Of a stretch of DNA of 64,000 nt, positions 4,555 to 40,008 are shown one piece after another. Position 1 is the stretch's first letter; each line of letters opens with the position of its first letter. Both the position numbers and the translations under genes were made by a program. Source of the DNA: Desertivirga arenae (lineage in GTDB: Bacteria; Bacteroidota; Bacteroidia; Sphingobacteriales; Sphingobacteriaceae). Below the pieces are notes generated by a model. It ran no database searches. It had not been told where the DNA came from and saw nothing but the letters and a program-made list of their open reading frames with translations. The stretch lies in assembly GCF_017355785.1 (NCBI RefSeq), contig NZ_JAFEWE010000007.1, forward strand, positions 186,001 to 250,000, in the 5' to 3' direction.

Positions 4555-4610
4555 TGATACAAATCGACAAAAGGTTGAAGCCGGATTGTGAATTGGGTTA
4601 GCTTATTTTG
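4555..4610 (+). promoter_or_regulatory. PUL 1 operator/promoter, copy A (before GH115)
   Basis: TGA (4555-4557), TCGAC (4564-4568) and TGA (4576-4578) form the shared element TGA-N6-WCGAC-N7-TGA. The promoter box TTATTTTG ends at 4610, exactly 46 bases after the T of TCGAC. No TTTG is seen at the -33 position, which suggests activator dependence. The GH115 start codon follows 33 bases later. Confidence 0.7.
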
Positions 4611-4642
4611 AAGTCTGAGAGTTAGATAACCAGTTTTTCAAA

Positions 4643-7615
4643 ATGAGCCGTTTTCATTCCATTTCTTTAAAGATAATATTAGGTATACTTTTTACAGGTC
4701 TCATTATGCAGGCCAGTGCACAGGTGCGGCTGGCAACAGGTAAGGTAAGCCGGAGTGATTTCTCCTTAATTGGTGCCCGTAATTCTGCTTCACTTTATTA
4801 CGATCAGCAGGATCACGAAGTAGTTAAAAGAATTACCAGGCTGTTTGCAGAGGATATTCGCAACGTAAGTGGAAAGCTCCCTACTGTGTCTTCAGCTGAA
4901 ATAAAACTGTCAGAGAACAGTGTTATAATAGGCACCCTTGGAAGTAATAGATTGATCGATAAATGGGCGCGTGAAGGAAAGATACAAAGCAGCGGCTTGA
5001 AAGGTAAATGGGAGTCGTACCTTATTCAGCTTGTTCAAAATCCCGCGCCTGGCGTCAAAAGAGCTCTGGTAATAGCAGGCAGCGATAGACGGGGGACAGC
5101 TTTTGGGGTTTTTTCTATTTCTGAGGCTATCGGAGTATCTCCATGGTATTGGTGGGCAGATGCTCCGGTGGTGAAAAGATCAGAAATTAGTCTTACCATA
5201 AAGACAATTGTTTCACATGAACCCTCTGTGAAATACCGGGGAATATATGTAAACGATGAAGACTGGGGCTTGCTGCGCTGGGCAAAGAGGACGTATGATG
5301 TAAAGCAAGGCAATATCGGCCCCAAAACATATGCCAAGGTATTTGAGCTTCTTCTCCGTCTTAAGGCTAATTACCTATGTCCTGCTATGCACGAAGCCAG
5401 TACTGCTTTCAATAAGATTCCGGAGAATAAGCTTCTTGCCGATAGTTTCGCTATCGTTATGGGATCGGTTCATGCAGAGCCACTCTTATTTAATAACGCC
5501 AGTGAATGGGATAAGAAGACCATGGGTGAATGGGATTACCTTACAAACAAGGAAGGTATAAATAAGGTGCTGAAGGAGCGGGTGAGAAATAACGGAGCTT
5601 ATGAAAATGTTTATACCCTGGCTTTACGGGGCATTCATGACAAGGCAATGTCTGTAAACAGTTCCATACAAGACAGGGTGAAGGTACTTAGTAATGCCCT
5701 TAGTGACCAGCGACAAATTCTTACAGACGTTATTGGTAAACCTGCAAACCAAATACCGCAGGCATTTACTCCATATAAGGAGGTTCTGGATATTTATTCT
5801 AATGGACTTGAGTTGCCGGAAGATGTAACGATAGTGTGGCCCGACGATAATTATGGTTATATAAAACGCTTGAGTAATTCGGCTGAAAGGAAACGCTCTG
5901 GTCGCTCAGGTGTTTACTACCATGTATCCTATCTTGGAAAACCTCATGATTACCTGTGGCTAAGCTCGACTCCACCAGCCCTGATGTACGAAGAGCTGCG
6001 CAAGGCCTATGATACTTCTGCCGATCGTCTTTGGCTCCTTAATGTAGGTGATATAAAATCATGCGAATTTCCATTCTCCTTATTTATGGATATGGCTTAC
6101 GATATAAGCAAGTTCGACTATAATATGATTGCGGGATATCATGCAACTTGGTTGAGCAAGATCTTCGGCGAACAGTACTATAAACCATTGCTAGATATTA
6201 CTAAATCATATTATCATCTGGCCTTTTCCCGGAAACCAGAAGCCATGGGATGGGGATATGAATGGAACACGAATAAGAATGGCAGAGAACGCACTACGGA
6301 TACCGACTTTTCATTTGCAAATTATCAGGAAGCAGAATCAAGATTAAAAGAATATGATCGTATTGGATCCGCCGCGGAGGATTTGATGAATAAGCTTCAG
6401 GATGATCAGAAAGCGTCTTTTTATCAGTTGCTCTACTACCCCGTGAAGGGCGCTGAACTAATGAATAAGATGCATTTGAATGCTCAGAAGAATCGTTGGT
6501 ACGCGCGCCAGCAAAGAAGCGCTACTAATGATCTGAAAAGCCAGGTAAAAGTTTATTACGATAGCTTACAGGTGATCACCAAGGGATACAACTCGCTATT
6601 AGACGGTAAATGGAATCATATGATGTCTATGGTTCAGGGAGTTACTGCTTCCTATTTTGAATTGCCGCATTTAGATTCTATCAAGTTAGAAGGATCGCCA
6701 CAATTGAATGTATTTGCAGAGGGAGAAGACGTGCTGAAAGGTAAATCAAGCTTTCATGCTCTGCCGTCGTTTAGTACTTATAACAGGCATTCATCCTATG
6801 TCGACATTTATAACAGCGGAAAAGGATCGCTTAACTGGAATATAAAAATCTCCGATAGTTGGATAATAACCAGCAAAAGTAGTGGTACAACAAGCACACA
6901 AGAGAGAATAGCGATCGCCGTTGACTGGAACAAAATACCATGCGGAGAGAAAGTGGCTGGTTCGATCACCATCAGCGCTGCAGGTAAAGAAGAGCAGGTG
7001 CTGATTTCAGTATTTAACCCTGTGTCACCATCTCTGGCTGAAACCAAAGGGTTATTTATAGAAGATAATGGCTATATCTCGATAAATGCAGCTGGCTTTC
7101 ATCGAAAAGTAGAAAACAACGATATAAAGATGAAAGTCATTCCGGGACTTGGTTACGAAGGCGCTTCTGTTCAGCTCGGCGATCCGGTTGCAGCTTTCCA
7201 GAACCCGGCAAGCAGTACAGTTCCTTGTCTTGAATACGATTTTTACACCTTCGATGCAGGTTCAGTAGATGTATACACTTATGCCTTGCCTACTTTTCCA
7301 CTTAGTACAGACAGGCCTCTCGGTCATGAAACTGCAGCCGGAGAAACGAGGTATGGAGTATGCATCAATGATGGTGCTGTTTCCCAACCTTCTACTTCTG
7401 CTATTGAGTATTCTCAGGTATGGTCTGAAAACGTGCTGAGGAACGCTGCTATTAAGAAATCTGTGCTTCATATCAATAAACCTGGCAAGCATACCTTGAA
7501 GATCCTTTGTGGAGACCCGGGACTGATCATTTCAAAAATAGTACTTGATTTTGGAGGTATGAAAAGATCGTACTTGGGGCCGCCGGTAACGAAATCCGGG
7601 GAGGAAGGGAAATAG
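4643..7615 (+). CDS. GH115 alpha-glucuronidase, secreted
   Basis: Likely removes glucuronic acid or 4-O-methyl-glucuronic acid side chains from xylan or a related backbone. The first 27 residues are a signal peptide (hydrophobic core, then QASAQV). The region from about residue 140 to 520 carries family-typical stretches: GSDRRGTAFGVFSISEAIGV, WYWWADAPV, a KYRGIYVNDEDWG stretch and the LKANYLCPAMHE segment. The C-terminal 300 residues are beta-rich, as in known GH115 enzymes, and the 990-residue length fits the family. It is the first gene after operator copy A and is followed 58 bases later by GH105, so the two are probably co-transcribed. GH115 enzymes act on internal as well as terminal glucuronosyl groups, which fits a role as a debranching enzyme. 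The exact substrate cannot be read from sequence. Confidence 0.9.
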   Translation: MSRFHSISLKIILGILFTGLIMQASAQVRLATGKVSRSDFSLIGARNSASLYYDQQDHEVVKRITRLFAEDIRNVSGKLPTVSSAEIKLSENSVIIGTLGSNRLIDKWAREGKIQSSGLKGKWESYLIQLVQNPAPGVKRALVIAGSDRRGTAFGVFSISEAIGVSPWYWWADAPVVKRSEISLTIKTIVSHEPSVKYRGIYVNDEDWGLLRWAKRTYDVKQGNIGPKTYAKVFELLLRLKANYLCPAMHEASTAFNKIPENKLLADSFAIVMGSVHAEPLLFNNASEWDKKTMGEWDYLTNKEGINKVLKERVRNNGAYENVYTLALRGIHDKAMSVNSSIQDRVKVLSNALSDQRQILTDVIGKPANQIPQAFTPYKEVLDIYSNGLELPEDVTIVWPDDNYGYIKRLSNSAERKRSGRSGVYYHVSYLGKPHDYLWLSSTPPALMYEELRKAYDTSADRLWLLNVGDIKSCEFPFSLFMDMAYDISKFDYNMIAGYHATWLSKIFGEQYYKPLLDITKSYYHLAFSRKPEAMGWGYEWNTNKNGRERTTDTDFSFANYQEAESRLKEYDRIGSAAEDLMNKLQDDQKASFYQLLYYPVKGAELMNKMHLNAQKNRWYARQQRSATNDLKSQVKVYYDSLQVITKGYNSLLDGKWNHMMSMVQGVTASYFELPHLDSIKLEGSPQLNVFAEGEDVLKGKSSFHALPSFSTYNRHSSYVDIYNSGKGSLNWNIKISDSWIITSKSSGTTSTQERIAIAVDWNKIPCGEKVAGSITISAAGKEEQVLISVFNPVSPSLAETKGLFIEDNGYISINAAGFHRKVENNDIKMKVIPGLGYEGASVQLGDPVAAFQNPASSTVPCLEYDFYTFDAGSVDVYTYALPTFPLSTDRPLGHETAAGETRYGVCINDGAVSQPSTSAIEYSQVWSENVLRNAAIKKSVLHINKPGKHTLKILCGDPGLIISKIVLDFGGMKRSYLGPPVTKSGEEGK

Positions 7616-7673
7616 GAACCACCCAGACAACTTGATGATAAAACAATATAAATCTGATTTAAACTAAACATTT

Positions 7674-8780
7674 ATGATAAAGCGAAGGATACTTGCGTTA
7701 ATGCTGCTTTTAACTGTGCAGCTTTCATTTGCTCAAAAGAAGCTTTTAAAGAATTTTCCCAAGGGCTATACACCAGAAGAGGTAGGAAACCGGTTAGCCT
7801 ATCGTTTCCTGGATGGAAAGCACATGCTACATGCTGGTAAATGGATCAGCTACCCCGAAACTTTTAATTGGACCGGTGCCCTTAAATTCGCTGCATTCAC
7901 GAAAGACAAGGAGCTTGTACAAAAGTTGCAGGACAGGTTTGAACCTTTATTTTCTTCAGAAAGCAAATTTTTACCTCCCAAGAATCATGTGGATTTGAAT
8001 ATGTTTGGAAGTTTGCCTTTTGAACTTTACCGTGTAACCAAAGACGACCGTTATTTTAACCTGGCAAAACCTTACGCTGATACTCAGTGGATCTTGCCAG
8101 AAAATGCAAATGCAAAGGAAAAGGCATGGGCCGATAAAGGCTATTCCTGGCAAACCCGCTTGTGGATAGATGATATGTATATGATCACCATCGTTCAGTC
8201 CCAGGCTTACAAAGTAACTGGAGATAAAAAATATATCAATAGGGCTGCGAAAGAGATGGTTATGTATCTGGATTCATTGCAGCGTCCAAACGGCCTTTTT
8301 TATCATGCCCCTGATGTGCCCTTCTATTGGGGAAGGGGGAATGGCTGGATGGCGGCAGGTATGGCTGTATTACTGCGAAACCTTCCAAAAGACAATGCAG
8401 ATCGCCCAAGAATACTAGAAGGATACAGGACAATGATGGAAAGTTTGAAGAACTACCAGACACCGAAGGGTATGTGGAATCAGTTAATAGACGACCCTGA
8501 CTGCTGGGCAGAGACTTCAGGATCGGCAATGTTCACCTACGCCCTGATTTCAGGCGTCAAGCAAGGATGGCTTGACGAAAAGGTGTATGCACCGGTAGCA
8601 AGGAAAGCCTGGATGGCTTTAATACCTTATATCAATGAGAAAGGTGACGTAACGGAGGTTTGCGTGGGTACGAACAAGAAAAACGACAAACAGTATTACT
8701 ATGACCGTCCGAGGCATGTGGGAGATTATCATGGGCAGTCACCTTATCTCTGGTGTACTTATGCTCTCCTGGAAAAATAA
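7674..8780 (+). CDS. GH105 unsaturated uronyl hydrolase, secreted
   Basis: Hydrolyses oligosaccharides that carry a 4,5-unsaturated uronic acid at the non-reducing end, the product of polysaccharide lyases (YteR/RhiN-type enzymes). A signal peptide ends near residue 20 (LSFAQ). The (alpha/alpha)6-barrel signatures are visible: TRLWIDDMYM (Asp166-Asp167, where the family has its catalytic Asp), HAPDVPFYWGRGNGWMAAGM and the CWAETSGSAMFTYAL segment. The 368-residue length is normal. It is the second gene of the GH115 unit. No polysaccharide lyase was recognised in this window, so the unsaturated substrate must be made by an enzyme encoded elsewhere or by an unrecognised one here. Family call is firm; the uronic acid and linkage are unknown. 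Confidence 0.9.
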   Translation: MIKRRILALMLLLTVQLSFAQKKLLKNFPKGYTPEEVGNRLAYRFLDGKHMLHAGKWISYPETFNWTGALKFAAFTKDKELVQKLQDRFEPLFSSESKFLPPKNHVDLNMFGSLPFELYRVTKDDRYFNLAKPYADTQWILPENANAKEKAWADKGYSWQTRLWIDDMYMITIVQSQAYKVTGDKKYINRAAKEMVMYLDSLQRPNGLFYHAPDVPFYWGRGNGWMAAGMAVLLRNLPKDNADRPRILEGYRTMMESLKNYQTPKGMWNQLIDDPDCWAETSGSAMFTYALISGVKQGWLDEKVYAPVARKAWMALIPYINEKGDVTEVCVGTNKKNDKQYYYDRPRHVGDYHGQSPYLWCTYALLEK

Positions 8781-8882: not shown

Positions 8883-8938
8883 TGAGACGTATCGACAAAA
8901 GGATGAGTGGATTATAGCTGAGGAATCCTTTTATTTTG
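8883..8938 (+). promoter_or_regulatory. PUL 1 operator/promoter, copy B (before GH43-SusCD)
   Basis: TGA (8883-8885), TCGAC (8892-8896) and TGA (8904-8906), then TTATTTTG ending at 8938, again 46 bases from T to G. The core TCGACAAAAGG is identical to copy A over 11 bases, while the sequence between operator and promoter box has diverged. There is no -33 TTTG. The next start codon is 77 bases on. Confidence 0.7.
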
Positions 8939-9014
8939 AGCAATACCAATTAAATCGTAAAACCTTGCGACAGATACCCTGATTTCCCGGATCTATTGCA
9001 AATAAATTTATTTT

Positions 9015-10577
9015 ATGAAAAGACTACCAATTTTTAAACTGATGGCGGCTATATTTTTTATAGCTTCTGCCTGCCAGAAGGGGCCCGCAGATTTCCCGGG
9101 CACCGGGCAACCTGACGTTCCACTGGAACCTGGTGCTACCCTCAGCTCAGCTCCTCTCGGAACTTTAGTAGACAGTGGTATTTACAGGATCCGTGGTTTA
9201 GCATCAATAGAGGGAGGGCCGGTAGTTGAAGTAGCAGGAAAATCCAAAGGTGAAAATGCTATGGTCCATCAATGGACGTGGTTTCCTAATAATGCTCAAA
9301 AATGGCAACTAATTAAGGCTGATTCAAACTACTATCAGTTGAAAAATGCACACAGTAACCGGTTACTTGAATCTCCATCTTCAATTGCCGGCGCTATACT
9401 TCAACAAGGCAAGGAAAAGCACTCTGACGCTCATTTATGGAAGATAACTTATACTGGTAGTAATAACCTTTTTACGCTTACCAACAAGGGAACCGGGATG
9501 AAAATGGTCCTGGATCCTGATAATAATGTTGCGGGGAGTAAGATAAGGCAGAATGTTTCAGTAACTGGCAAGCAAGATGTATTCAATTTTCATAATCTCT
9601 ACTATCAGAACCCGCTTATAGATGTTAGCAGGGCCGATCCCTATGTTGCTGAAAAGGATGGCTCTTATTATTTTATGTATACCAGAGGTGACCGGTTAGG
9701 GCTCAGAAAGACAAAATGGATGTCGCTTGTCAATACGGCTAGAGAGGTGGTAGTGTGGACCCCTCCTGCGGGTACTGCTTACTCAAAAAACATCTGGGCT
9801 CCAGAGCTGCATTTCCTTGAGGGTAAGTGGTATTTATATTTTGCAGCTAACGACGGACAGGGGGATACCCACAGGATGTATGTCCTTGAAAACAGCAATG
9901 CTGACCCTACCACGGGTACCTGGACCTTTAAGGGGAAAATTTCAGATCCTTCTGATCAGTGGGCTATTGATGGAACAGTGCTAACAATCGGCTCCAATCA
10001 CTACTTCGTGTGGTCAGGTTGGGAAAGTGTAAGAACCAGGTACAAACAATATATTTATCTCGCTTCCATGTCTAACCCATGGACTATTAATAGCAACCGT
10101 GTAAGAATATCTGCTCCTACAGAAACCTGGGAAAAGCACGAGCCAAATTCAATCGGTTTAGGTGTGAACGAAGCGCCCATCATGCTCCAGAAAGATGAAG
10201 AAAGCCCTGTATTTATTATATATTCTGCAAGTCGCTACAGCAGCGATAATTATTGCCTGGCGCAAATCCAGCTGAAAGATGGAGGGAATCCATTAAATAC
10301 GGATGATTGGATCAATAAAAAGCAGGTTTTTGTAAAAAGTGAAGCTAATGCTGTATATGGACCCGGACATAACGGATTCTTTACCAGCAGCTTTACGGAC
10401 CCCGACAAGGTAACGCATAAAGAAAACTGGTTTATCTACCATGCTCGCAGTGCCCCTAATACCTCGGGCCCAAGAACGCCAAGAATGCAAAAGCTAACAT
10501 GGAACGCAGACGGATCTCCCAATTTTGGAACCGCGATCGGGCAGGGAGTGAGTATGCAAGTACCGGTAGGCGAATAA
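9015..10577 (+). CDS. Lipoprotein with ricin-type lectin domain and GH43 domain
   Basis: Probable cell-surface exo-acting arabinofuranosidase or xylosidase. The N-terminus is a lipoprotein signal (FIASAC, lipidated Cys20). Residues about 45-195 form a beta-trefoil, ricin-B/CBM13-like domain, with QKWQL and LWKIT repeats typical of the fold. Residues about 198-515 are a five-bladed GH43 propeller: Asp208 in RADPY is the general base, Asp319 in WAIDGT the pKa modulator and Glu386 in NEAPI the acid. The stretch KNIWAPELHF with YFAANDG is typical of arabinan- or arabinoxylan-active members. It is the first gene after operator copy B and lies 25 bases before susC, so it belongs to the import operon. 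The lectin domain probably holds the enzyme on its glycan. Subfamily and specificity are not readable by eye. Confidence 0.87.
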   Translation: MKRLPIFKLMAAIFFIASACQKGPADFPGTGQPDVPLEPGATLSSAPLGTLVDSGIYRIRGLASIEGGPVVEVAGKSKGENAMVHQWTWFPNNAQKWQLIKADSNYYQLKNAHSNRLLESPSSIAGAILQQGKEKHSDAHLWKITYTGSNNLFTLTNKGTGMKMVLDPDNNVAGSKIRQNVSVTGKQDVFNFHNLYYQNPLIDVSRADPYVAEKDGSYYFMYTRGDRLGLRKTKWMSLVNTAREVVVWTPPAGTAYSKNIWAPELHFLEGKWYLYFAANDGQGDTHRMYVLENSNADPTTGTWTFKGKISDPSDQWAIDGTVLTIGSNHYFVWSGWESVRTRYKQYIYLASMSNPWTINSNRVRISAPTETWEKHEPNSIGLGVNEAPIMLQKDEESPVFIIYSASRYSSDNYCLAQIQLKDGGNPLNTDDWINKKQVFVKSEANAVYGPGHNGFFTSSFTDPDKVTHKENWFIYHARSAPNTSGPRTPRMQKLTWNADGSPNFGTAIGQGVSMQVPVGE

Positions 10578-10602
10578 ATTTTAATAAGAAATCAATTGTA
10601 AG

Positions 10603-13600
10603 ATGATGTTATATAATTACTTAAGTTCTAAACGAATGCGGGTTTCGGAAGGGCTGCTATTTGTTCTGTGCTTTTTCCTTGGACAGTTCGCAGTTTTAGC
10701 ACAAAACAGGACAATAAGAGGAACCGTAATGGATGCCACTACCGGCGAAGCGTTGATAGGTGTAGTAGTTAAAGTTGATAACAGTAAAATCGGGACTAGT
10801 ACAGACCTTAAAGGAACATTTACCCTTGCGGTCCCCGCAACTGCAACGCTCAACTTCTCCTATATAGGCTACGAAACCCAAACTGTCGCAATTGGTGACA
10901 GAAATGAAATTCAGGTTAAACTTACTCAAAGCAATAAAACCTTAAATGAGGTGGTCGTGGTAGGTTACGGCACCATGAGGAAGAAAGATCTTACCGGTGC
11001 CATAACGCAGATCAGACCCGATAAAATCGCCGATCAGAATCCTAACACTACTCAGGATATTCTTCGTGGAACTCCTGGTGTTACAGTAGGATTGGATCCT
11101 GGTGCAAAAGGAGGAGGTACGATCAGGATCCGCGGCCAACGATCAGTATACACTGCAGGGGGGCATAATGACCCTCTTCTTGTACTGGATGGAACAATTT
11201 TTTATGGCGAGTTATCCGAGATTAATCCTGACGATATTGAACAGATCGATGTATTGAAAGACGCTTCGGCTGCTGCCGTTTACGGAGCTAAATCTGCTAA
11301 TGGTGTGCTGATCATCACGACAAAAAAGGGAAAGAAGGGAAAACCAAAGTTTAGTGCTACTTCCAATGTTGGCGCGGTAACAATGGGGGTGGATCGCAAT
11401 GTTTTTGATCCGGAAGGCTATATGAAGTACCGGAATGACTGGTACCTGGCAGATACCTATGGTGTAAACACGGCAACCGGTAATTATGAGGCTTACCGTA
11501 CAGCTTCTTCAGCTTCACAAAGTAAAATATTGCCAGGATACTTTGACCGGCCTACTGAAGCTAACCTGTCTAGATACGGACTTACTTTAGACCAATGGAA
11601 AGCTTATACAAATAACGAGGCTGGTGCATCTGATAATGAAATCTGGGCAAAGCGCTTATTATTGCAGGGAACCACTTTAACCAACTTTCTAGGGGGCCAA
11701 ACTTTTGATTGGTACAATCACAGCTTCAGAAGGGGATTCAATCAAGATCATAACTTGAGTGTTTCCGGTGCAAGTGACAGGACAAGTTATTACATGTCTC
11801 TTGGTTATCTTTCCAATGAAGGGGTTACAGTAGGTAACGATTATAAGGCGATACGCTCCAATTTAAAAGTAGACGGCAAAGTAAATAAATGGCTGGATAT
11901 CGGTGCCAATATTAATTTTCAACACCGGACTGATGGAGATCTGGCTGTAGATTTTGACAGGCAGATGCGTTCGAACTCCCCATTCGCCAGCTACAGAGAT
12001 GCAGATGGAAATCTAGTGGTATACCCTATGGGTGAGGCTGTTACTGTTAACCGTGGATATAACTATGATTTTGATATTGACTATCGCGATCTGGACAAAG
12101 GATTCACAACTTTCAATACTATCCTGACAGCCAAAGTCAAGCTTCCTTTCAATATCACATATTCCTTCAATGGTTCTCCACGTTTCCAGTTCTTCCATGA
12201 TCGCTACTGGGAGTCTGCCAGCCATCCTGCCTGGAGGGGAACAAATGGATTGGTTAACAGGGAAGCTACAGAACGCTTCGAATGGTCACTAAATAATACT
12301 CTTAATTGGGAGCATACCTTCGCAAAAAAACACCACTTTAATGTCACTCTAGTGCAGGAAGCTGAACAAAGACAAAGATGGAGGGACAGAATAGAAGCCC
12401 GCAATATTCTTCCTAGTGATGCATTGGGCTATCACGAAACCTTTTATGGTGATAAGAACAAAAGTCTTTACGACAGTGATGATATAAAAGAGACAGCTGA
12501 TGGATTGTTAGGCCGCTTGTTCTATTCCTATGATGGCCGCTATATGCTTACTACCTCGGTTCGTCGTGATGGATATTCAGCATTTGGATCTTCAAATCCG
12601 AGGGCTACATTTTTCTCCGCGGGCCTTGCATGGACATTCAGCAATGAGAAGTTCTTTAAGTGGTCATCAATGAGTAATGGTAAATTAAGAGTGAGCTGGG
12701 GGCAGAATGGTAACAGGCAGCTCGATAATGTTTATATTGCCTTAGCCAACCTTGGTGCGGGTGCCGGGGGAACGATGGGGTATGTTGACGCAAGTGGGAA
12801 CCTGATACAGTACAGATATTTGTATATGGATAGGCTTGCGAGCCCTGGACTGGCTTGGGAGAAGACCGAAGCTTTCAATACAGGACTAGATTTTGGGTTT
12901 TTAAGGGACCGGATAACAGGGTCTTTCGATTACTACATCACCCCAACGGTGGATATGATTATGAGTCGCAACTTACCTGATTTTACTGGCTTTGCCAGTA
13001 TCACCACCAACCTGGGAAAGGTTGAAAACCGTGGATTTGAAATATCTATAAATTCTCAAAATATTCGAAGTAATTCATTTACCTGGAATTCTACCTTGGG
13101 TTATTCTAAATACAAAAACACGATCAAAAACCTTTATTACATCTATGATAATGTCCTGGATGCAAATGGAAACGTAGTTGGGACGAAAGAGCGGGATGAT
13201 ATATCAAACAGCTGGTTTATCGGACAGCCTATCAATTCAATATGGGATTATCGTGTAACAGGAATCTGGCAAGCGAATGAGGTAGAGGAAGCCAAAAAAT
13301 ATGGTCAACGACCGGGAGACCCTAAGGTTGCTAATCTTTATACTGCTGACGACAAGGTTAACGCAGATGGAAGTATTTCGCCAGTTTATAACAACAGCGA
13401 TAAGGAGTTCCTGGGACAGGAAAATGCTCCGATCATGTGGTCACTGAGAAATGACTTCACCTGGAAAAACTTGAGCTTATCCTTTAACATGTATTCCTAC
13501 TGGGGCCATAAGAGCCGTAACTCCAATTACCTGAACCAAACGAACGGAGGGTCGGAGGTAACTTATCTGTGGAATACCTATGAGAGAAATTACTGGACAC

Positions 13601-13890: not shown

Positions 13891-13901
13891 CTAACAGAAC
13901 G

Positions 13902-15887: not shown

Positions 15888-15943
15888 TGATACGAATCGA
15901 GAAAGGTATGAATCGATTCTCCTGTGGCCAATCGCTTACTTTG
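15888..15943 (+). promoter_or_regulatory. PUL 1 operator/promoter, copy C (before clan-A hydrolase)
   Basis: TGA (15888-15890), TCGAG (15897-15901) and TGA (15909-15911), then TTACTTTG ending at 15943, again 46 bases from T to G. The fifth core base is G instead of C here. The hydrolase start lies 87 bases downstream. Confidence 0.65.
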
Positions 15944-16029
15944 AGTTTCGAGATAATAGGCGCTGCATGTGATTTCGAACAATCTAACAATGTAGATGTG
16001 ATATTACGCAGCCAAGAACAACAACATTT

Positions 16030-17968: not shown

Positions 17969-17978
17969 GGTTTTATTT

Positions 17979-20201: not shown

Positions 20202-20202
20202 T

Positions 20203-28025: not shown

Positions 28026-28230
28026 ATATGTAAACCGATAGATGATGCACCGGGTACTGCGTCCTCCTTATTTAGGGGAATGATTTGTTGGGCGATTAAT
28101 AGGGATCGATCTTATAAGCGGCTTTAACAATACAATGAAAAAACTAACCAACAGAATAAGAATAAGTCCTAGCAGCTAAGAAAGCTAAGTAGAGGCTGAC
28201 AATCAGTAATAACCAATTTAACTAAATTTT

Positions 28231-29613: not shown

Positions 29614-29636
29614 TTAGAAACCTAAGCAATTTAACA

Positions 29637-32600: not shown

Positions 32601-32717
32601 ACTAACCTGCTTACCTTCAGTAGTTTCAAGCTCTGGGATCCTGAATTAGGAAGTTCTGACGGAAAAGCATACCCCCTAAACAGAACGCTGTCTGCTGGAA
32701 TATCAGTTAGTCTATAA
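29637..32717 (+). CDS. SusC-type TonB-dependent transporter (PUL 1, second)
   Basis: Signal peptide to residue 20 (FSSLAQ), carboxypeptidase-D-like domain at about 25-100 (GKVTDAKKEPLIGVSISI), linker SVLNEVVITATG, then a plug domain with VLIDGF and the SusC signature VLKDASATAIYGSRGANGV. The barrel ends in LSAGISVSL. The 1026 residues and lack of an STN domain are standard. It differs clearly from the SusC at 10603 in plug and barrel loops, so the two probably import different fragments of the same glycan. An EF-hand-like DVNGDGIVNDADIV segment near residue 840 suggests a calcium site, as in other members of this subtype. The susD start is only 2 bases beyond the stop. Confidence 0.95.
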   Translation: MKYILLTCILFLSISFSSLAQQEVIVKGKVTDAKKEPLIGVSISISNMPGLGTITDVNGNYTIKMPPYQTLVFNYIGFDKQEVLVKEQRVVNVVLKESEASVLNEVVITATGAEKKIAVTGAITTVDVRQLKSNPSTSIADALAGVVPGIQAMQTSGRPGSVSEFWVRSISTFGASNAALVLIDGFERDMNEINVEDVESFTVLKDASATAIYGSRGANGVILIKTKRGKEGKVNINAKVEGFYSTLTKLPQFVDGYQYASMANEAKIARNQEPLFSTTELEILRLGLDPDLFPNVNWQDVLLRNGAKSQRSMLNMSGGGKTARYFLSGSYQNQEGIYKVDNALKDYNTNANFHRYTYRLSVDMDITKTTLLSGGISGSLRKQNDPGVGTDAIWTALMGYNAITAPLVYSDGRIPADDDGNTNADDDINRFNPWVQGTMTGYRENWNNNIQTTLNLNQKLDFITKGLQFIGRFGYDTYNDNWINRYKNPELWDVSRYRNNGELVFKRIKEEQKMTQSAGSNGEKREFFEWETQYSRAFGAHTFGAVLKYNQQAKIFTQNIGADLKNGISRRLQGLAGRANYNFKSRYFFDFNFGYTGSENFHKDYRFGFFPAISGAWNVGEERIIKELGFVDMFKIRYSHGITGNDNLGRDIRFPYLYTIEQMTGGGYNFGDFDSSNPWTGMRYSSVASPDVTWEIATKQDLGLDYSFFRDKLSGTIDLFKESRDGIYMSRDYLPGIVGLESNPSANVGKVEVQGIDGNIALKRRVLGIDLTLRGNLTYSKNKIIERDEENTIYTYRLQEGHRVGQARGLIDLGLFRDYEDIRNSPRQTFGEVMPGDIKYKDVNGDGIVNDADIVAIGATTRPNLTYGFGTSARWKGLDINMHFQGVGKSTYFINGTSVYMFSLGENWGNVLTDMANSNRWKLGENEDPNADFPRLTYGPNSNNYRSSTFWLRDGSYLRLKTLDIGYSLPKAFVNKAHLNNARLFLIGTNLLTFSSFKLWDPELGSSDGKAYPLNRTLSAGISVSL

Positions 32718-32719
32718 GT

Positions 32720-34807
32720 ATGAAGAATATGAAAAGAACTTTTATTATTTTAACTTTTATAGCGTCTACATTAATCGTTGGCGGTTGTTCAGATTATCTT
32801 GATTCAGATTATTTGTTCAATGAACGAATGACCACAGAAGACGCTTTTTCCAATCCGGATTATGCTAACCGCTGGTTGGCACGCGCTTACTCTTTCTTGG
32901 GAAATAATTACATGCAGGATGTAAGCAGCAAGAAAAATGTTCCCTTTAATTTCGCTGATGACATGTATTTCGGCGACGAAAATGACCGTTACAGGAAATG
33001 GAAATATGGGCAGTATGATGAAAGTGGAGTGAATGGTGAAAGTGATGATATCTGGAATACGGCTTATGACGGGATCAGGCAAGCTTCTGTTTTTATCAAT
33101 AATATTGATATCAACACCAGATTTTCGCGAGCAGAAATCGCGGATCTGAAAGGACAGGCGCGGTTTTTAAGGGCATATTTTTATTGGATACTCTTGAGAA
33201 CTTATGGCCCTGTACCCATCGTTCCTGATGAAAGTATTGATTATACAAAGGAATATGATGAGATAGCCCTGCCCCGGAATTCGTACGAAGAATGTGCAGA
33301 TTATTTGTCTAAGGAACTCGTTGAGGCGGCTAAGGGACTTCCACTTAAGATGGGCATTCAGCAAATTGCAAGGCCGACACGGGGGGCAGCTTTAGCTTTA
33401 CGCGCCAGGATATTGTTATTTGCAGCGAGCCCATTAGCGAACGGTAAAGCTCCGGCAGACGTAGCAGCAGCATTGATCAATAAAGATGGTAAGCGTTTGC
33501 TTTCGGCCGTTTATGATGAGTCGAAGTGGGCAAAAGCAGCGGCCGCAGCAAAAGACGTAATGGACCTTGGACAATACCAGCTGTATGTAACTTATAAGAA
33601 AACTACGGGTGATATTGCTTATCCGGCAACAGTTACCCCCCCGGCTGATAATAATTTTTCTAATAGCAATTGGCCTGCAGGATGGAAAGATATTGATCCT
33701 TTCGAATCCTACCGGTCGATATTTAATGGAACTGTTCCTGCCTTTCAAAATCCTGAGTTGATCTTCACACGTGGGCAGAATCAGGGAGCTGAAGGAATAA
33801 ACGTACTGGTGATACACCAATTGCCCCGGCTTGAGGGAAAAGGGTATAACTCGCATGGCATGACACAAAAGCAAGTGGATGCTTATTACACCAAGGATGG
33901 TAGCGATATACCAGGCATGAACGATATGTACGCCGGCAGAACGGGGTACGAAGGAAGATATAATACTTCCAAGCGTGCTTCAGGTTATGTAAGTCAGCAG
34001 GAATTGTCAAACTATCCTGAACTAGGCCCCTTAGGTGTAGGTGTCAATAAGCAATTTGCGCAGCGTGAGCCCAGGTTCTATGCTTCAGTTTCTTATAATG
34101 GATCCACCTGGAACTTCCTGAACGCAGAGGCGGTAAGAGATGAAAAGAGTAATGTGCAGATCTACTACTATCGCGGCGATCCAAATGGTTATAAGAATAC
34201 TACATACTGGCCCCGGACCGGGACTGGAATTAAGAAATACGTGCATCCGGATGATATAAGTAATGTGGCAGTAACGGCATATGACCAAAGTAGATTAAAA
34301 CAGAAAGTTGATCCGGCAATACGTTATGCGGAAGTGCTGCTCATCTATGCAGAAGCATTGAACGAATTAAACGGTTCATTTAACGTGCCTTCCTGGGATG
34401 GTACTAAAACGCACGTTATTGCCAGGAATGTAGGTGAGATGAAAAACGGAATTCAACCTATCCGTATCCGCGCAGGATTGCCAGATTATAGTGATGAGGT
34501 GTATTCAGACCCGGTAAAATTTAGAATAAAGCTCAAGCGGGAGCGGCAGATCGAGCTATTCGCTGAAGGCCATCGCTATTTTGACCTTCGCCGTTGGACA
34601 GATGCTCCTGACGAAGAATCAGCTCCAGTTTATGGCTACAATGCTTATGCTACAAAAGCACAGGCTGACCTTTTCCATACGGTTGTAGAAACACCTTCAT
34701 TACCGTCTATTTTCACTTTAAAGATGTGGTTCTGGCCGATTGACTTTAGTGAGCTTAGAAGAAACAAGAACCTGATACAAAATCCAGGCTGGACCAATCC
34801 CGAATAA
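32720..34807 (+). CDS. SusD/RagB glycan-binding lipoprotein (PUL 1, second)
   Basis: Partner of the SusC just upstream. The lipobox is LIVGGC with the lipidated Cys at about residue 23. The SusD N-terminal helices contain NTAYDGIRQASVFINNI and GQARFLRAYFYWILLRTYGPVPIV, a strong family signature, followed by RPTRGAALALRARILLFAASPL. The C-terminal RagB part has RYAEVLLIYAEALNEL, KLKRERQIELFAEGHRYFDLRRW and ends at the usual FSELRRNKNLIQNPGW. At 695 residues it is somewhat longer than typical. Start choice: the ATG at 32720 precedes a second Met three codons on; either gives a normal lipoprotein signal. Translation is probably coupled to susC. Confidence 0.95.
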   Translation: MKNMKRTFIILTFIASTLIVGGCSDYLDSDYLFNERMTTEDAFSNPDYANRWLARAYSFLGNNYMQDVSSKKNVPFNFADDMYFGDENDRYRKWKYGQYDESGVNGESDDIWNTAYDGIRQASVFINNIDINTRFSRAEIADLKGQARFLRAYFYWILLRTYGPVPIVPDESIDYTKEYDEIALPRNSYEECADYLSKELVEAAKGLPLKMGIQQIARPTRGAALALRARILLFAASPLANGKAPADVAAALINKDGKRLLSAVYDESKWAKAAAAAKDVMDLGQYQLYVTYKKTTGDIAYPATVTPPADNNFSNSNWPAGWKDIDPFESYRSIFNGTVPAFQNPELIFTRGQNQGAEGINVLVIHQLPRLEGKGYNSHGMTQKQVDAYYTKDGSDIPGMNDMYAGRTGYEGRYNTSKRASGYVSQQELSNYPELGPLGVGVNKQFAQREPRFYASVSYNGSTWNFLNAEAVRDEKSNVQIYYYRGDPNGYKNTTYWPRTGTGIKKYVHPDDISNVAVTAYDQSRLKQKVDPAIRYAEVLLIYAEALNELNGSFNVPSWDGTKTHVIARNVGEMKNGIQPIRIRAGLPDYSDEVYSDPVKFRIKLKRERQIELFAEGHRYFDLRRWTDAPDEESAPVYGYNAYATKAQADLFHTVVETPSLPSIFTLKMWFWPIDFSELRRNKNLIQNPGWTNPE

Positions 34808-34824
34808 CTATTTAATCTGAAACG

Positions 34825-35829
34825 ATGAAGAAGAATATATACATTATATTTTTAGCAATAACAAGTGCCCTATGCTTTATCTCATGCAATGACGAATGGG
34901 AGAATGAGCAGTTTGTTCAGATGGCATCTTTTAAGGCAGAACCTAATGACCAGGGCGTAACCCCCTCATATTTACGTTATAATCCTGAAGGTAAAGTGAG
35001 GTTCAATCTACCAATCATTATCAGTGGCTCGACTCCTAATAATAAACCCCGTACTATACATATCGGTCTGGATCCTGATACGCTGGCGAGATTAAACCAT
35101 GAAGAATACGGACATCGCCAGGAATTGTACTTTAAACAGCTGGATAAGAAATACTACAGCATGCCCGAAACGATAGAAGTCCCTGCGGGAGTAAGTACGG
35201 TTACTGTCCCTATAGAATTTACACTTGGAGACTTGGATCAGGTTGAAAAATGGGTGCTCCCTCTGCAGATTCTTGATGATCCTTCCTATGATTATAAAGC
35301 GAACCCTAACAAGAACTATAGAAGGGCTATGCTTCGTATCACTCCGTTTAATGACTATTCGGGCGAATATGGAGGAACTTTGTATAAGATCTATCTTGAT
35401 GGAAATAATAGCGAGCCTTTAACTCTGAATAATCACCGTACTTATGTGGTAGACAACAAAACTATATTTCTTTACGCTGGCATCAGGGATATTGACTATA
35501 CGGACCGTAAAAACTATAAAGTGTTTATTAAGTTCACCGATGATGTTATTGATATTCAGAAAAAGAAACTTCAGATCTGGAGTGATAATACCGCTAATAA
35601 CAAGTTTAAGGTAGGGGCAGATCAATCTTACTATACCATAGAGGAGGCCTGGGATCCAAAGCTACCTTATCTGAAGCATATTTATATCACCCTTTATCTG
35701 TCATACGAGTTCGAAGACTATACTACAGTACCGGGGCAGCGTTTAAAATATAAGGTAGAGGGCACCTTATCCATGCAACGTGATTTAAACACCTTGATAC
35801 CTGATCAGGATCAGCAGATCCAGTGGTAA
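34825..35829 (+). CDS. DUF1735-type surface lipoprotein
   Basis: Auxiliary surface protein of the second SusCD operon, probably a glycan binder in the position of SusE. The signal ends in CFISC (lipidated Cys near residue 21). The N-terminal 160 residues match the DUF1735 beta-sandwich pattern (FKAEPNDQGVTPSYLRYNPEGKV... then PETIEVPAGVSTVTVPIEF). The C-terminal half is a second beta-rich domain of the DUF4973/DUF4361 kind found with it in Bacteroidota. At 334 residues it has the usual two-domain length. It follows susD by 17 bases and ends the operon; a hairpin terminator follows. Binding function is inferred from context only. Confidence 0.75.
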   Translation: MKKNIYIIFLAITSALCFISCNDEWENEQFVQMASFKAEPNDQGVTPSYLRYNPEGKVRFNLPIIISGSTPNNKPRTIHIGLDPDTLARLNHEEYGHRQELYFKQLDKKYYSMPETIEVPAGVSTVTVPIEFTLGDLDQVEKWVLPLQILDDPSYDYKANPNKNYRRAMLRITPFNDYSGEYGGTLYKIYLDGNNSEPLTLNNHRTYVVDNKTIFLYAGIRDIDYTDRKNYKVFIKFTDDVIDIQKKKLQIWSDNTANNKFKVGADQSYYTIEEAWDPKLPYLKHIYITLYLSYEFEDYTTVPGQRLKYKVEGTLSMQRDLNTLIPDQDQQIQW

Positions 35830-35940: not shown

Positions 35941-37110
35941 TTAGTTTTTTAGCTGATATTTTGCTTTTTTCTGCAGTGAATGAGACCTCCCTGGATCATA
36001 GACAGCTACTCCAACCCTTGAATCTGCGCCCCCATAATACAGATACCAACGATCTTTAAACCAAGCCATCCCCTCTATAAATACTGTACCCTTGCTGTAT
36101 TGTCCGCGCTTCTCAAAGGCTTCGGTTGGGATAAAGAATGGTTCATCAAGCCTGTCAATTAGTTTTGCTGGTGCCTTTTTATCAAATAACATTTGTCCAG
36201 CACTGTAAGAGCCTCCGTAATAACGCTTATCACCTCTGGAATCAGAATGGTTCCGTCCATTATAAAATAAGATAATTCCCTTTTTAGTTAGAACAGCAGG
36301 AGGGCCGCATTCGGTCATATCACTATCGAAAAAGCCTTTTCTGGGAGAGGCAAGGATTATAAGGTCTCCCTTATCGTTGGTAAGAGGTTTCCAATCAACA
36401 AGGTTATTAGAAGTTGCAGCATAAACATGTCGCTCACCCCAGTACATAAAATACTGGCCGTTCAACTTTGTGATGATCTGACGATTATCCTTGATCCTGG
36501 TAAGTATAGAGGCAGATTTGGTGGCCATGTTATGAAAAATACCATTATAGGCATCCTGAAAGACAGGGCCGTGCTTTTCCCAGTGAATTAAATCTCTTGA
36601 AGTTGCTGAAGCCAGGCGTGGTACCTTCCGGTTCCACTGTGTATATAACATTAAGTAAGTTCCATCCTCTGTTAATGCTATTCTTGGGTCTTCGCAACCT
36701 CCCGGCCATTCAAAAGCCTTTTGTCCGTCATCAGCAGGAAATAAGATGGGCTGCTTACATCGAGTAAAATGAAAGCCGTCTTTACTTTCTCCATAGCCCA
36801 GACGTGAAGTTCGGGTGCTGATCTTTGCTCCGCTATTATCCTCAGATCTATAGATAACTATTATTTTATCATTCTTAATTGCGGCCGCAGGGTTGAAGGT
36901 GTCATTTGCTTCCCATCGAATAGTTGAGTTACTCATAGGATCAATAAACACGGAACTTGAATCTGGTGAAATTATAGGGTTTACACCAGAAGGACGTAAA
37001 AAAGGTCCCCAGGCCCAGGCAGGCAAAGTACCGCTGTTTTGCGCAAAGGCGATTTTACTTACAAAAAGGGAAACGGAAAGGATGGAGTGAATAAGGCTTT
37101 TTCTAGTCAT
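35941..37110 (-). CDS. GH130 beta-mannoside-active enzyme, secreted
   Basis: GH130 members are inverting phosphorylases or hydrolases acting on beta-mannosides. A signal peptide covers about residues 1-23 (KIAFAQ). The five-bladed propeller motifs are clear: DTFNPAAAI, IYRSED, the hallmark GGCEDPRIA (Glu140-Asp141), DMTECGPP and the C-terminal WYLYYGGADSRVGVAV. Export favours a hydrolase over a phosphorylase, because phosphorylases of the family usually lack signals and work in the cytoplasm. Its ATG overlaps the end of the GH2 gene by 8 bases (ATGACTAG), so translation is coupled. With the GH2 enzyme it points to mannose in the PUL 1 substrate. The linkage, and hydrolysis versus phosphorolysis, are not decided by sequence reading. 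Confidence 0.85.
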   Translation of the reverse strand: MTRKSLIHSILSVSLFVSKIAFAQNSGTLPAWAWGPFLRPSGVNPIISPDSSSVFIDPMSNSTIRWEANDTFNPAAAIKNDKIIVIYRSEDNSGAKISTRTSRLGYGESKDGFHFTRCKQPILFPADDGQKAFEWPGGCEDPRIALTEDGTYLMLYTQWNRKVPRLASATSRDLIHWEKHGPVFQDAYNGIFHNMATKSASILTRIKDNRQIITKLNGQYFMYWGERHVYAATSNNLVDWKPLTNDKGDLIILASPRKGFFDSDMTECGPPAVLTKKGIILFYNGRNHSDSRGDKRYYGGSYSAGQMLFDKKAPAKLIDRLDEPFFIPTEAFEKRGQYSKGTVFIEGMAWFKDRWYLYYGGADSRVGVAVYDPGRSHSLQKKAKYQLKN

Positions 37111-39814
37111 TGCTAACTTTGATTTTAGATCTTATTTCTGCTGAATTGAATGCGCCGGTTATGAGCGTAACTGCTTTTCCGTTTGCTGAGGGAGGAAGCT
37201 CAATTTCAACCTTTTTAGCTTCTCCAGGAAGCAATGAAAAAAAGTTGTCTGAGTAAAAGGCAGGAGAAATGTTGGTTCCGTCGGGATATTGCAGTTTTAA
37301 TTGAGTGAAAAAAGCTATTCCCTGAGTGGGGTTTCTAACCGTTACTGACAAGATTGTCTTACTATCAATAGTTTTTTTGCTTAGAGCAACACTCAAATTA
37401 ACCTTATTCAGCTTATCAATTTCAGAAAAGCCAGATACTGCAGGCCCCGTCATTGTCCATGGTCCTTTGTATTGATCATTTGAGCGCCAGTAAAAGGAAT
37501 CATTTACAAGTTTCCCATTCTTATCTTTTAAAATCAACTTAACAAAGTGCACCTGGCTAAGCCTTTCAGGAAATTCGATCAAGAGTGCATCTTTGACTAC
37601 TCCGTCTGCCGGAATATCAACAACTTTTGTCTTTTTCCAAACGGCTACGGCATCCATGTTATAGACTGTCGCCTCTAGCGTATATCCGGCAAAGGAAGTA
37701 CGGTAATCATTGTAGATAGAGACCGAATTCTTTAAATAATCAAATTGAGGGTGTAAAGGGGCTAATCCATTTTGGGAATAATAAAGCGCGGCAGTTGGTT
37801 CGAGGAACCAATCGTACAAACGAGAGGCCGTTTGTGGAACAGGACTATTGTGATACCAAAATAGGAAGCCGGAAGACCAGCGATCGCCGAAGTTAAATTT
37901 ATTGTAGTTCCATACCTCCCAAATAGCCCGGAAATTTAAAGCTCCTACGAATTGAGCTTTTTTCGCATATTCTTCTATTGAAGACGACTTCCCGAACTCA
38001 TTTACTGCCTGACGGTATTTCGTATTGACCTGGTGGAATCCATTGCCGTCTAAGTAGTTCCATACGGAATCATTAATTGGCCAGAGATCGTTTTCGGGCA
38101 TCATTCGCTTCAGTGATTCAAGTACCGGTGTACAAGGGGCGCCATACTCAGGGTTAAAACCATCTACGCGACTACCGCGGGGAGAGGCAGTGTTCTCGAA
38201 GTATTGCATTGGGTTCTCGTATTTGTAGGGACTTCCATCATGGATCCCGCAACATTCTGATTGTTCCTGATAGCCATGGGTATCATCTAAAGAAAGAATA
38301 AATTCTCCCTCCCCTGGTAATTCTTTAGATTCGTTTGTACCTACGTAATAGGCTATAGAAGCATGATTGCGAATTCGTTTGATAGTGCTACTTACGTTCC
38401 TGAAGTACAAAGCAGTATCAACAGGCATACGTGTATCGCCAGTGATCCAGAATTCGTTCCATACCATCAAGCCCAGCTGGTCGCAAAGTTCGTAGAAGTA
38501 GTCGGACTCTGCCACCCCACCAGCCCAAAGCCTAATCAGATTCAGGCCTGCTTGCCGGGTATAACGTAACTCCGCATAAGTCCGTTGGCGGTTATTTTGC
38601 AACATAGCTTCGGGAACCCAGTTAGTACCACGTATAAATACAGGCTGGCCGTTAACGATAAACCGACGGGACTTGTCGGGGGTATTTTGATCTGAGGTAA
38701 TTGTACGAACTCCGAAACGGGTGTTCAATTGATGGCTTCGCTTATTTTGAACGGAAAAACTCAAATCTAAATTATATAGGTAGGGTGCACCTTTGTTTAC
38801 CGGCCACCAAAGTTTAGGATTATGGATGATTAGATTTTTATGCTTTTCAGGAGTAAAAACAACTGTTTTAGTTTGATAGGGTTCCAAAGTAAGGGGTTGC
38901 GAAAATTGAACTCCCAACTGCTTAATGCTACCGGTAACTATTCCCTGCTTACGAGCAGGGGATGCATTATATACTTCTACGGAGATCGTTTCTTTGGACA
39001 AAGTTGTGTCGGAATCAGGAAATTCTGTTTTGACAAATGGATGTGACAGTGTTACCTCTCCTGTTGCGAAAAGTTCTACGTCCCTCCAAATTCCAGTATT
39101 ACGATCACGAACACCATCCGGTACAGTAAAATCCCATCCAACGCTCATCAGCATACTTACATTTTTTCCTATCTCTCCATCTCCACCATTATGGTTTTCA
39201 CCGACAGCACCTGTCCGCTTAGCTCCAACCTTATCATATGCACCTGGAAAATCCACAGGTTCTATATCTACTGCAAGAGCATTTCCGCCACTCCTATTTA
39301 CTGAGGATGTAACGTCAAAAGTCTGGTCATTAAACATTCCTGTCATGTTACCTAATTTTTTCCCATTTAGCCAGATTGCGCATCTATAGTTAATGCCGTT
39401 AAACTTCAACCAAATGCGCTTTCCCTGAAAAGTATTAGGAACCTTGAAAACTGTTCGAAACCAATAATGATAGAAGTCTCTTCCAGCTTCAGCGATATCA
39501 GGTATAAGATTTCTTTTCTTTCGGTTATTATCTCCAAAGTACGGATTGGGGTAGATACCATTAGCTACTAAATTACTTAGAACAGTTCCCGGTACTTCTG
39601 CAGGAAGCCATGATCTACTATCGTAGTTAAGAGATGAAATCTCTTTTCCGCTGCTAAGTTTAGAAGCTTGCTGCATTTTCCAGCTCTTGCTTTTTCCACT
39701 ATTTAAAAAGATTGAAACATCTGAGCTTGGTGCACATAGTGTTTTGTACTGTTGCGCATTTGCTGATAAGCATAAGGTTATTAGAATGGCAATACAAGTA
39801 AAGATTTTATTCAT
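37103..39814 (-). CDS. GH2 family hydrolase, beta-mannosidase type, secreted
   Basis: Retaining exo-hydrolase. Signal peptide to residue 20 (LSANAQ). Domain order is typical of GH2: jelly-roll sugar-binding domain (about 50-230, AGRDFYHYWFRTVF), immunoglobulin-like domain (about 240-370), (beta/alpha)8 catalytic domain (about 380-680, GVRTITSD... NGQPVFIRGTNWVPEAM), then further beta domains. The acid/base is Glu495 in YVGTNESKEL and the probable nucleophile is Glu556 in NPEYGAPC. The N-terminal and catalytic patterns are those of the mannosylglycoprotein endo-beta-mannosidase and exo-beta-glucosaminidase branch, not beta-galactosidase. It is the first gene of a two-gene unit with GH130, with operator copy F about 170-190 bases upstream. 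Specificity could be beta-mannosidase or beta-glucosaminidase; I favour the former because of GH130. Confidence 0.85.
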   Translation of the reverse strand: MNKIFTCIAILITLCLSANAQQYKTLCAPSSDVSIFLNSGKSKSWKMQQASKLSSGKEISSLNYDSRSWLPAEVPGTVLSNLVANGIYPNPYFGDNNRKKRNLIPDIAEAGRDFYHYWFRTVFKVPNTFQGKRIWLKFNGINYRCAIWLNGKKLGNMTGMFNDQTFDVTSSVNRSGGNALAVDIEPVDFPGAYDKVGAKRTGAVGENHNGGDGEIGKNVSMLMSVGWDFTVPDGVRDRNTGIWRDVELFATGEVTLSHPFVKTEFPDSDTTLSKETISVEVYNASPARKQGIVTGSIKQLGVQFSQPLTLEPYQTKTVVFTPEKHKNLIIHNPKLWWPVNKGAPYLYNLDLSFSVQNKRSHQLNTRFGVRTITSDQNTPDKSRRFIVNGQPVFIRGTNWVPEAMLQNNRQRTYAELRYTRQAGLNLIRLWAGGVAESDYFYELCDQLGLMVWNEFWITGDTRMPVDTALYFRNVSSTIKRIRNHASIAYYVGTNESKELPGEGEFILSLDDTHGYQEQSECCGIHDGSPYKYENPMQYFENTASPRGSRVDGFNPEYGAPCTPVLESLKRMMPENDLWPINDSVWNYLDGNGFHQVNTKYRQAVNEFGKSSSIEEYAKKAQFVGALNFRAIWEVWNYNKFNFGDRWSSGFLFWYHNSPVPQTASRLYDWFLEPTAALYYSQNGLAPLHPQFDYLKNSVSIYNDYRTSFAGYTLEATVYNMDAVAVWKKTKVVDIPADGVVKDALLIEFPERLSQVHFVKLILKDKNGKLVNDSFYWRSNDQYKGPWTMTGPAVSGFSEIDKLNKVNLSVALSKKTIDSKTILSVTVRNPTQGIAFFTQLKLQYPDGTNISPAFYSDNFFSLLPGEAKKVEIELPPSANGKAVTLITGAFNSAEIRSKIKVSND

Positions 39815-39984
39815 TTAGAGAGAATTAGATAAAATGAGGTTTGAGGGGCTAGTTCCATCCTTTAGTTTCATAAGTTCCTGAGTTAATATAAATCTAAAGC
39901 TCATTCATTCTGTAAGAAAGTAGGGTTTGTTTGATAAAACTTGATAAAGGCTTAAAGATATCAAGGAGGCATTTAGAATATCGA

Positions 39985-40008
39985 TCATACTTTTGTCGAT
40001 TTTTCTCA
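39985..40008 (-). promoter_or_regulatory. PUL 1 operator, copy F (before GH2-GH130)
   Basis: On the minus strand: TGA (40008-40006), TCGAC (39999-39995) and TGA (39987-39985), the same spacing as the other five copies, with core TCGACAAAAG. At the position where the others have TTANTTTG (around 39953) only a poor match is seen (CTTTA), so its promoter box is weak or shifted. The rest of 39815-40131 shows nothing else I can name. Confidence 0.6.

Follow-up and report, generated by a model that had tools for sequence, protein, structure and literature searches.

We analysed a 64,000-nucleotide stretch of the Desertivirga arenae genome (contig NZ_JAFEWE010000007.1, positions 186,001 to 250,000 of the forward strand; hereafter the window, position 1 being its first letter), in which a glycan locus at 4.6-39.8 kb carries six copies of a short element, TGA-N6-WCGA-N8-TGA. 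An earlier interpretation made from the letters alone (the sequence-only reading) had placed one copy before each of six transcription units and had assigned them to the response regulator encoded at 19416-20201. We recovered the copies where it had reported them, at 4555, 8883, 15888, 23541 and 27970 on the plus strand and at 40008 on the minus strand, with no other match on either strand of the window, against a mean of 0.24 and a maximum of 2 in 200 dinucleotide shuffles; the two TGA triplets are indeed 21 bp apart. With columns counted from the first T, and the site extended to column 35 as explained below, the copies are as follows.

4555-4589, plus strand: operator copy 1, first half in columns 1-14, second half (columns 22-35) degenerate; before the GH115-GH88/105 unit
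8883-8917, plus strand: operator copy 2; before the GH43-SusC-SusD unit
15888-15922, plus strand: operator copy 3, lowest 35-column score; before the GH5-like / 3-keto-disaccharide hydrolase / Gfo-Idh unit
23541-23575, plus strand: operator copy 4, good second half; divergent from the kinase gene, before the MGH1/GH63-like and sulfatase unit
27970-28004, plus strand: operator copy 5, good second half; before the TIG-protein / SusC / SusD / DUF4973 unit
39974-40008, minus strand: operator copy 6; before the GH2-GH130 unit

Measured from its first T, each copy precedes the start codon of the leading gene in its unit by 88-261 bp. Every transcription unit of the locus has one copy, as the sequence-only reading had it, with the sole exception of the kinase-regulator operon. 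Units were delimited by the order of open reading frames (ORFs) and the gaps between them, and domains were assigned by Pfam scan.

19416-20201, minus strand: response regulator of 261 residues, receiver and HTH_18 (AraC-type); the putative operator-binding protein
20203-23394, minus strand: sensor histidine kinase, Reg_prop, Y_Y_Y, HisKA and HATPase_c; a separate gene directly upstream of the regulator
4643-8780, plus strand: target unit 1, GH115 and GH88/105
9015-15836, plus strand: target unit 2, GH43 with a ricin-type lectin domain, a SusC-size gene and SusD (GH43 and SusD by Pfam)
16030-19334, plus strand: target unit 3, GH5-like, 3-keto-disaccharide hydrolase and Gfo/Idh/MocA oxidoreductase
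23659-27927, plus strand: target unit 4, MGH1/GH63-like and sulfatase
28231-35829, plus strand: target unit 5, TIG-domain protein, SusC, SusD and a DUF4973/BT_3044-like protein
35941-39814, minus strand: target unit 6, GH2-type glycosidase and GH130-like protein

The six elements are very probably operators of this AraC-type response regulator, which together with the adjacent kinase would form a split system of the hybrid two-component system (HTCS) type that activates the six units. The gene at 10603-13890 fell outside the Pfam scans and is named SusC by its size and its position beside SusD; pattern and matrix scans of the window found no operator copy at the next SusC (44517). The GH115, GH88/105, GH43-ricin-type, sulfatase and GH130 genes would, we presume, fit a glucuronic-acid-bearing heteroglycan such as arabinogalactan. 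Neither the closest structures nor PMC11036162 decides for or against this candidate.

For comparison with other genomes we ran a scan of genome contigs, which gave, among at least 80 loci listed, 16 ortholog loci (L009-L024) with regulators 67-81% identical to that of the window. Sites from these loci yielded a matrix of operator plus box, with which the six window copies scored 23.5-46.5, while 100 shuffled versions of the window reached 5.9 at most. A matrix built from the six window sites gave 30.6-36.0 for the copies themselves and, at a low cut of 12, two extra weak matches in the window (12.2 and 12.9), the reversed control also giving two. The sequence-only reading had proposed a genome-wide scan as a check, and its outcome was divided: over the 6.19 Mb of the genome, the longer shared consensus TGANACRWATCGACAAAAGNWTGA with up to three mismatches was specific, with ten matches including the six window copies and one for the backward control, but the loose pattern TGA-N6-WCGA-N8-TGA alone was not, with 37 matches against 31 for its reversed form. 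The latter count would suit copies that are chance matches or debris of a repeat element. We consider this view refuted, with practically no probability left to it, given the shuffles, the matrix scores, the mutually unrelated flanks of the six copies and the conservation in orthologs.

The ortholog alignment also redefined the extent of the site. The 29 aligned sites (a set that required complete flanks and a score of 13 or more, that includes a few weak sites and that lost one copy lying at the edge of its locus) are conserved from column 1 to about column 35, reading TGAgACAAATCGAC, then AAAAnnW, then TGAaCAAATTTTAC. Among periods of 8 to 29, a period of 21 gave the highest identity between column n and column n+21 (0.447, the next being 0.392) over 47 sites from the ortholog loci and from new loci outside the matrix building. 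This alignment makes the site a direct repeat of 35 bp with a period of 21 bp, of which the 24-bp element covers the upstream half, the middle and the opening triplet of the downstream half. The sequence-only reading, which had taken the 24 bases for the whole site, thus described something real but incomplete, the second half at columns 22-35 being revealed by the orthologs. Its attribution of the 21-bp spacing to an AraC-type protein is supported by the HTH_18 domain, by the strength of period 21 and by the spacing of HTCS motifs: both half-sites face the same way and are separated by two turns of the helix, as in an AraC-type tandem operator, and section 8 of PMC3878776 describes 16 Bacteroides HTCS motifs as direct repeats with an average 21-bp spacing. 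Scored over 35 columns, the copies at 8883, 23541 and 27970 were good and those at 4555, 15888 and 40008 lower, and these differences suggest a graded affinity. Between operator and box, the sequence is unconserved among the six window copies, as had been said, but not in the wider family. We also observed a weakly conserved ATT in columns 43-45 of the ortholog sites, three bases before the box, which is unclear in the six window copies.

A promoter-like box follows each operator at a constant distance.

4603-4611, plus strand: promoter-like box TTATTTTGA, copy 1, columns 49-57
8931-8939, plus strand: promoter-like box TTATTTTGA, copy 2
15936-15944, plus strand: promoter-like box TTACTTTGA, copy 3
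23589-23597, plus strand: promoter-like box TTAATTTGA, copy 4
28018-28026, plus strand: promoter-like box TTACTTTGA, copy 5
39952-39960, minus strand: degenerate promoter-like box TATCTTTAA, copy 6, register unchanged

From the T of WCGA at column 10 (A in the copy at 27970) to the G of TTANTTTG at column 56 there are 46 bases in all five plus-strand copies, exactly as the sequence-only reading had counted. The minus-strand copy (40008), which that spacing claim passed over, shows TATCTTTA at columns 49-56 as well and is thus also in register. The register extended beyond the window, where scores and tallies were taken on the 25 ortholog sites scoring at least 18 and on 22 sites from the new loci. 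The best box started at column 49 in 6/6 window sites, 18/22 new sites and 22/25 ortholog sites (the last being the source of the box matrix), and the G of TTANTTTG stood at column 56 in 5/5, 14/15 and 13/13 of its occurrences, respectively, that is, in 27 of 28 occurrences among the 47 sites outside the window. The sequence-only reading had called the box unusual in having its A one place later than in TAnnTTTG, and this is supported: TANNTTTG was found at 0/6 window, 0/25 ortholog and 1/22 new operator-linked sites, so that, with that one exception, the presumptive -7 box of these sites is not of the TAnnTTTG form. The absence of a -33 TTTG was confirmed as well, no TTTG being present in columns 20-40 of the six copies, and it is the downstream half-site (columns 22-35) that occupies the expected place of the -33 element. 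TTCG replaces TTTG in 4/25 ortholog sites, some of them in Chitinophagaceae; boxes with TTCG were seen at L012:16328, L012:17731, L015:3950, L023:6734 and L023:14298, in Chitinophagaceae or related loci.

Across 133 promoters of the genome, TTANTTTG had 8 forward matches against 8, 8 and 11 in three controls, the 8 presumably including the five of the window and that of a paralog on contig C39 introduced below, and TAnnTTTG followed by A or C had 21 against 11, 12 and 8. Since TTANTTTG is not enriched among these promoters, the box is a feature of this regulon and not of the genome as a whole. We separately tried, and rejected, a general rule for the SusC promoters of this genome: in 122 promoter regions near fused HTCS and SusC genes, TTANTTTG occurred 6 times against 5 reversed and TANNTTTG 29 times against 28 reversed, in an underpowered comparison with only 11 regions before complete SusC-size ORFs. 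Of 54 SusC regions, 32 were promoters of non-STN SusC genes, and in these no 21-bp repeat rose above shuffles, this set being underpowered too.

Fixed orientation and spacing could also arise if element and box together made up an alternative promoter, recognized by a sigma factor of the extracytoplasmic function (ECF) type, or a structured leader RNA, and one ortholog operator (L009) does have an ECF sigma gene downstream. However, the strongly conserved columns stop at 27, and the gap of over 20 bp from there to the box at 49 exceeds the spacers of ECF promoters. The conservation is moreover that of a 21-bp direct repeat and tracks an AraC-type regulator, which on sequence conservation makes such a promoter or leader very improbable. 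As for the direction of control, we infer activation rather than repression from geometry only. The same protein might bind and yet repress, or do both, the operator excluding polymerase until the signal arrives; the downstream half-site overlaps the expected -33 region, and the non-consensus HTCS protein BT2391 is described as a repressor in the part of PMC11253607 drawn on here. Repressor sites, however, need no phasing, whereas here the spacing between box and operator has almost no tolerance and is one helical turn off in a related clade; the regulator also retains CHIP, part of a motif linked in PMC11253607 to inhibited, phosphorylation-dependent DNA binding. We thus regard repression as improbable, and activation by the bound regulator as the reading to follow.

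The pairing of this operator with this type of regulator was recovered in other genomes. The original pattern, unchanged, gave 16 matches in 10 of the 16 ortholog loci (two of them from a local duplication in L024), where 20 shuffles averaged 0.5 and reached 3 at most. In the comparison sets it gave none in L025 (regulator 49% identical), 2 in 16 distant loci (shuffles: mean 1.35, maximum 4) and 8 in 47 receiver-only loci (shuffles: mean 3.55, maximum 9). The six-site matrix of the window found a match in 16/16 ortholog loci with none in reversed controls, and weak matches in 2/17 more distant loci with 2 in reversed controls. The ortholog sites were found via the window matrix, and the tests with the untouched pattern and with new loci are therefore more independent. 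In the latter, a site was present in 11/11 non-duplicate loci (regulators 64-79% identical; reversed controls 0), including both regulator genomes without a strict-pattern match; L175, a duplicate of L020, was left out, L177 is apparently from the same genome as L009, and L172 and L180 belong to one genome. Of 151 genomes of the family, 12 encode a regulator at 64% identity or more, and the operator was present in 10 of these and in 3 of the 139 others (Fisher p=1.4e-11); at the looser E<=1e-90 the counts were 10/17 and 3/134. Among regulators 52-59% identical, L182 (59%) has a window-type site and L184 (57%) a weak one, and no window-type operator was found at L183, L185, L186, L187 or L188. 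Near the kinase start of L183-L188 and L025 there was no TTANTTTG or TAnnTTTG box with room upstream for an operator.

The genes behind the ortholog operators resemble those of the window. There are 22 distinct ORFs, of which 18 were scanned and 16 are glycan-related: six GH43, five GH88/105, two GH5/GH2-like (one below the curated cut-off), two SusC/TonB and one 3-keto-disaccharide hydrolase. Of the other two, that in L009 encodes an ECF sigma factor and that in L018, behind a site without a box, an acyltransferase. In L017 and L022, mechanically called ORFs overlap the operator site. The divergent placement of an operator relative to the kinase gene recurs in many orthologs; one such operator, at 6115 in L009, stands before the ECF sigma-factor gene (5384-5950), which hints at a regulatory cascade.

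Recognition helix and operator also covary. At the start of the first recognition helix, SRTT replaces SRPT in eight loci, which form one clade on the tree (support 94/87). With a pattern allowing A or G at column 3 and up to three mismatches, the SRTT-type loci have G there in 9/11 sites (7/8 loci) and the SRPT-type A in 38/38 sites (20 loci), with p=2.7e-8 by site and 6.8e-6 by locus, both tests ignoring the single origin. L021 and L022, also Chitinophagaceae and near the SRTT clade on the tree, yet have SRPT and A; the operator therefore follows the regulator type rather than the bacterial family. Together, co-occurrence and covariation support the protein at 19416-20201 as the cognate regulator, as the sequence-only reading had proposed.

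The genome also holds two split paralogous regulators, C39:331916 (67%) and C12:706610 (64%), and one fused at 50%. The operators might be bound wholly or partly by either split paralog and then belong to a set under shared or crossed control, not to a regulon of one protein. The paralogs have a nearly identical first recognition helix (MSRPT, then L or F, YRK), and each of their loci carries one similar site with TTTG in the same columns (L096:6614 for C39 and L097:16246 for C12), one before a GtaA/DUF4964 gene, divergent from the paralog kinase, and the other before a GH127 gene. The paralog sites nevertheless depart from the consensus of the window copies in the stretch of columns 12-15, the second helix-turn-helix is not the same in the paralogs, and the ortholog loci pair this regulator type with a window-type operator within ~10 kb. 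We thus consider binding by the paralogs unlikely, and sole control of the six units by the protein at 19416-20201 likely from these sequence comparisons.

A related clade surrounds the fused 50% protein, its members being 51-65% identical to it, present in 41/151 genomes, and a mixture of split regulators (ORFs of ~260-297 aa) and fused ones (~1311-1396 aa), so that fusion and fission of kinase and regulator look frequent there. A different fused HTCS query had matches in 4/151 genomes only. In a de novo word search over 25 loci of this clade, which includes L224-L243, L183, L184, L186 and L187, the best word occurred in 24/25 and reversed words in at most 19; each locus was excluded from its own matrix when scanned. 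The site was present in 16/17 split and 2/8 fused loci, with none in the reversed control. The operator, TGAgACAAAw-N11-TGAtACAAAT, is also a 21-bp repeat. At the 30 sites of split loci, the G of TTTG falls 13 times at window-type column 67 and 6 times at column 66, compared with column 56 in the window type, and TTTG is thus 10-11 bp, or one helical turn, more distant in 19/30 sites.

Several observations weigh against a regulon controlled by the protein at 19416-20201 as we describe it. Three of the window copies have poor second halves, the best box is not at column 49 in 4/22 new and 3/25 ortholog sites, and the similar sites beside the two paralogs make cross-binding possible. The co-occurrence counts are not wholly independent: the window genome is among the 151, the pattern was loosened at columns 19-20 after the ortholog sites had been seen, and the 64% identity cut was set after the list had been seen. 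Three genomes bear the operator without a close regulator (G016:C100:214831, G060:C23:145431 and G095:C4:104231), the match in G016 (locus L189) being without a box, and both a close regulator and the site are missing from the two further genomes of the window's genus. Finally, the covariation is one evolutionary event, and 2/11 SRTT-type sites, including the sole site of one locus, keep A.

By its domains, the regulator-kinase pair is an HTCS-type system, split rather than hybrid. The sensor combines Reg_prop/Y_Y_Y with HisKA/HATPase and is predicted to be periplasmic in its sensing part, the regulator ends in an HTH_18 DNA-binding domain, and a direct repeat with a period of ~21 bp lies upstream of SusC/SusD and glycosidase genes, as in HTCS. 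Unlike in a fused HTCS, there are two ORFs (20203-23394 and 19416-20201). The closest full-length solved relative of the regulator, 12aw, is labelled a hybrid two-component system protein. CHIP was read in the receiver of the window regulator and in 16/16 of L009-L024, as the only part of the S/CHIP-D-K signature considered; PMC11253607 links the motif of which CHIP is a part to suppressed, phosphorylation-dependent DNA binding in HTCS proteins. In L009-L024 the regulator ORF has 251-264 aa, and in 13/16 it is directly preceded by a full-length ORF for a separate kinase (1051-1108 aa); the kinase ORF is short in L015 (615 aa) and L023 (648 aa), and none was recovered in L013.

We propose the following course of events. 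The periplasmic propeller of the kinase would sense a glycan fragment, and the kinase would phosphorylate the receiver domain of the regulator, which would bind as a head-to-tail dimer to the 21-bp-period direct repeat TGAgACAAATCGAC-N7-TGAaCAAATTTTAC. Because the downstream half-site covers the place of the -33 element, the bound regulator would sit against RNA polymerase at the TTANTTTGA box, with 46 bp between the central T and the G of the box, and transcription would presumably start from there. The six glycan units would in this way be activated together.

A wider proposition is somewhat favoured by the two clades compared, namely Sphingobacteriaceae and Chitinophagaceae loci for the window type and loci of the window's family for the related clade: in split HTCS-type regulators the activation geometry may be fixed to the base pair within a clade and helix-quantised between clades, TTANTTTG being a clade-specific variant of an activator-dependent promoter. 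If this is true, operators and regulons of unstudied glycan loci would be readable straight from sequence. Operators of glycan-sensing two-component systems of Bacteroides had been predicted before; the strongest new element here is the nearly invariant, helix-phased promoter register, which bears on the question of face-of-helix activation in bacteria of a phylum whose primary sigma factor is unusual. Operator, promoter register, regulator and targets are linked in about two dozen genomes, and this link can help to assign regulons to glycan loci of related Bacteroidota that are still uncharacterised. In the open-licence PMC literature searched we found no fixed operator-to-promoter distance, no TTANTTTG box and no such regulon; the parts consulted of PMC12125979 (on a XylR-like regulator), PMC4942465 and PMC6989115 have no bearing on operator-promoter spacing.

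Compared with known systems, the operator-linked box shares its TTTG core with the promoter of the Bacteroidota primary sigma factor, for which the relevant part of PMC7366714 gives TAnnTTTG at -7 and TTTG near -33, but it reads TTA-N-TTTG and has no upstream TTTG in columns 20-40. The likeness to Bacteroides HTCS, as far as these are covered in the parts used of PMC3878776 and PMC11253607, extends to the sensor kinase, the receiver with an S/CHIP motif, the C-terminal AraC-type domain and the control of SusC/SusD glycan loci, and, in the sections used of PMC3878776, to the direct-repeat operator with an average 21-bp spacing and half-sites of 12-16 bp in the examples described. This operator sequence, the exact box spacing and TTANTTTG were not found for Bacteroides HTCS in the same open-licence literature, and the window and the readable ortholog loci differ from them in encoding kinase and regulator as separate genes. 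Class II activators of the AraC family use tandem half-sites two helical turns apart, the downstream one beside polymerase. Unlike the classical AraC activators, the system described here would be controlled by a receiver domain and a kinase in place of a sugar-binding arm.

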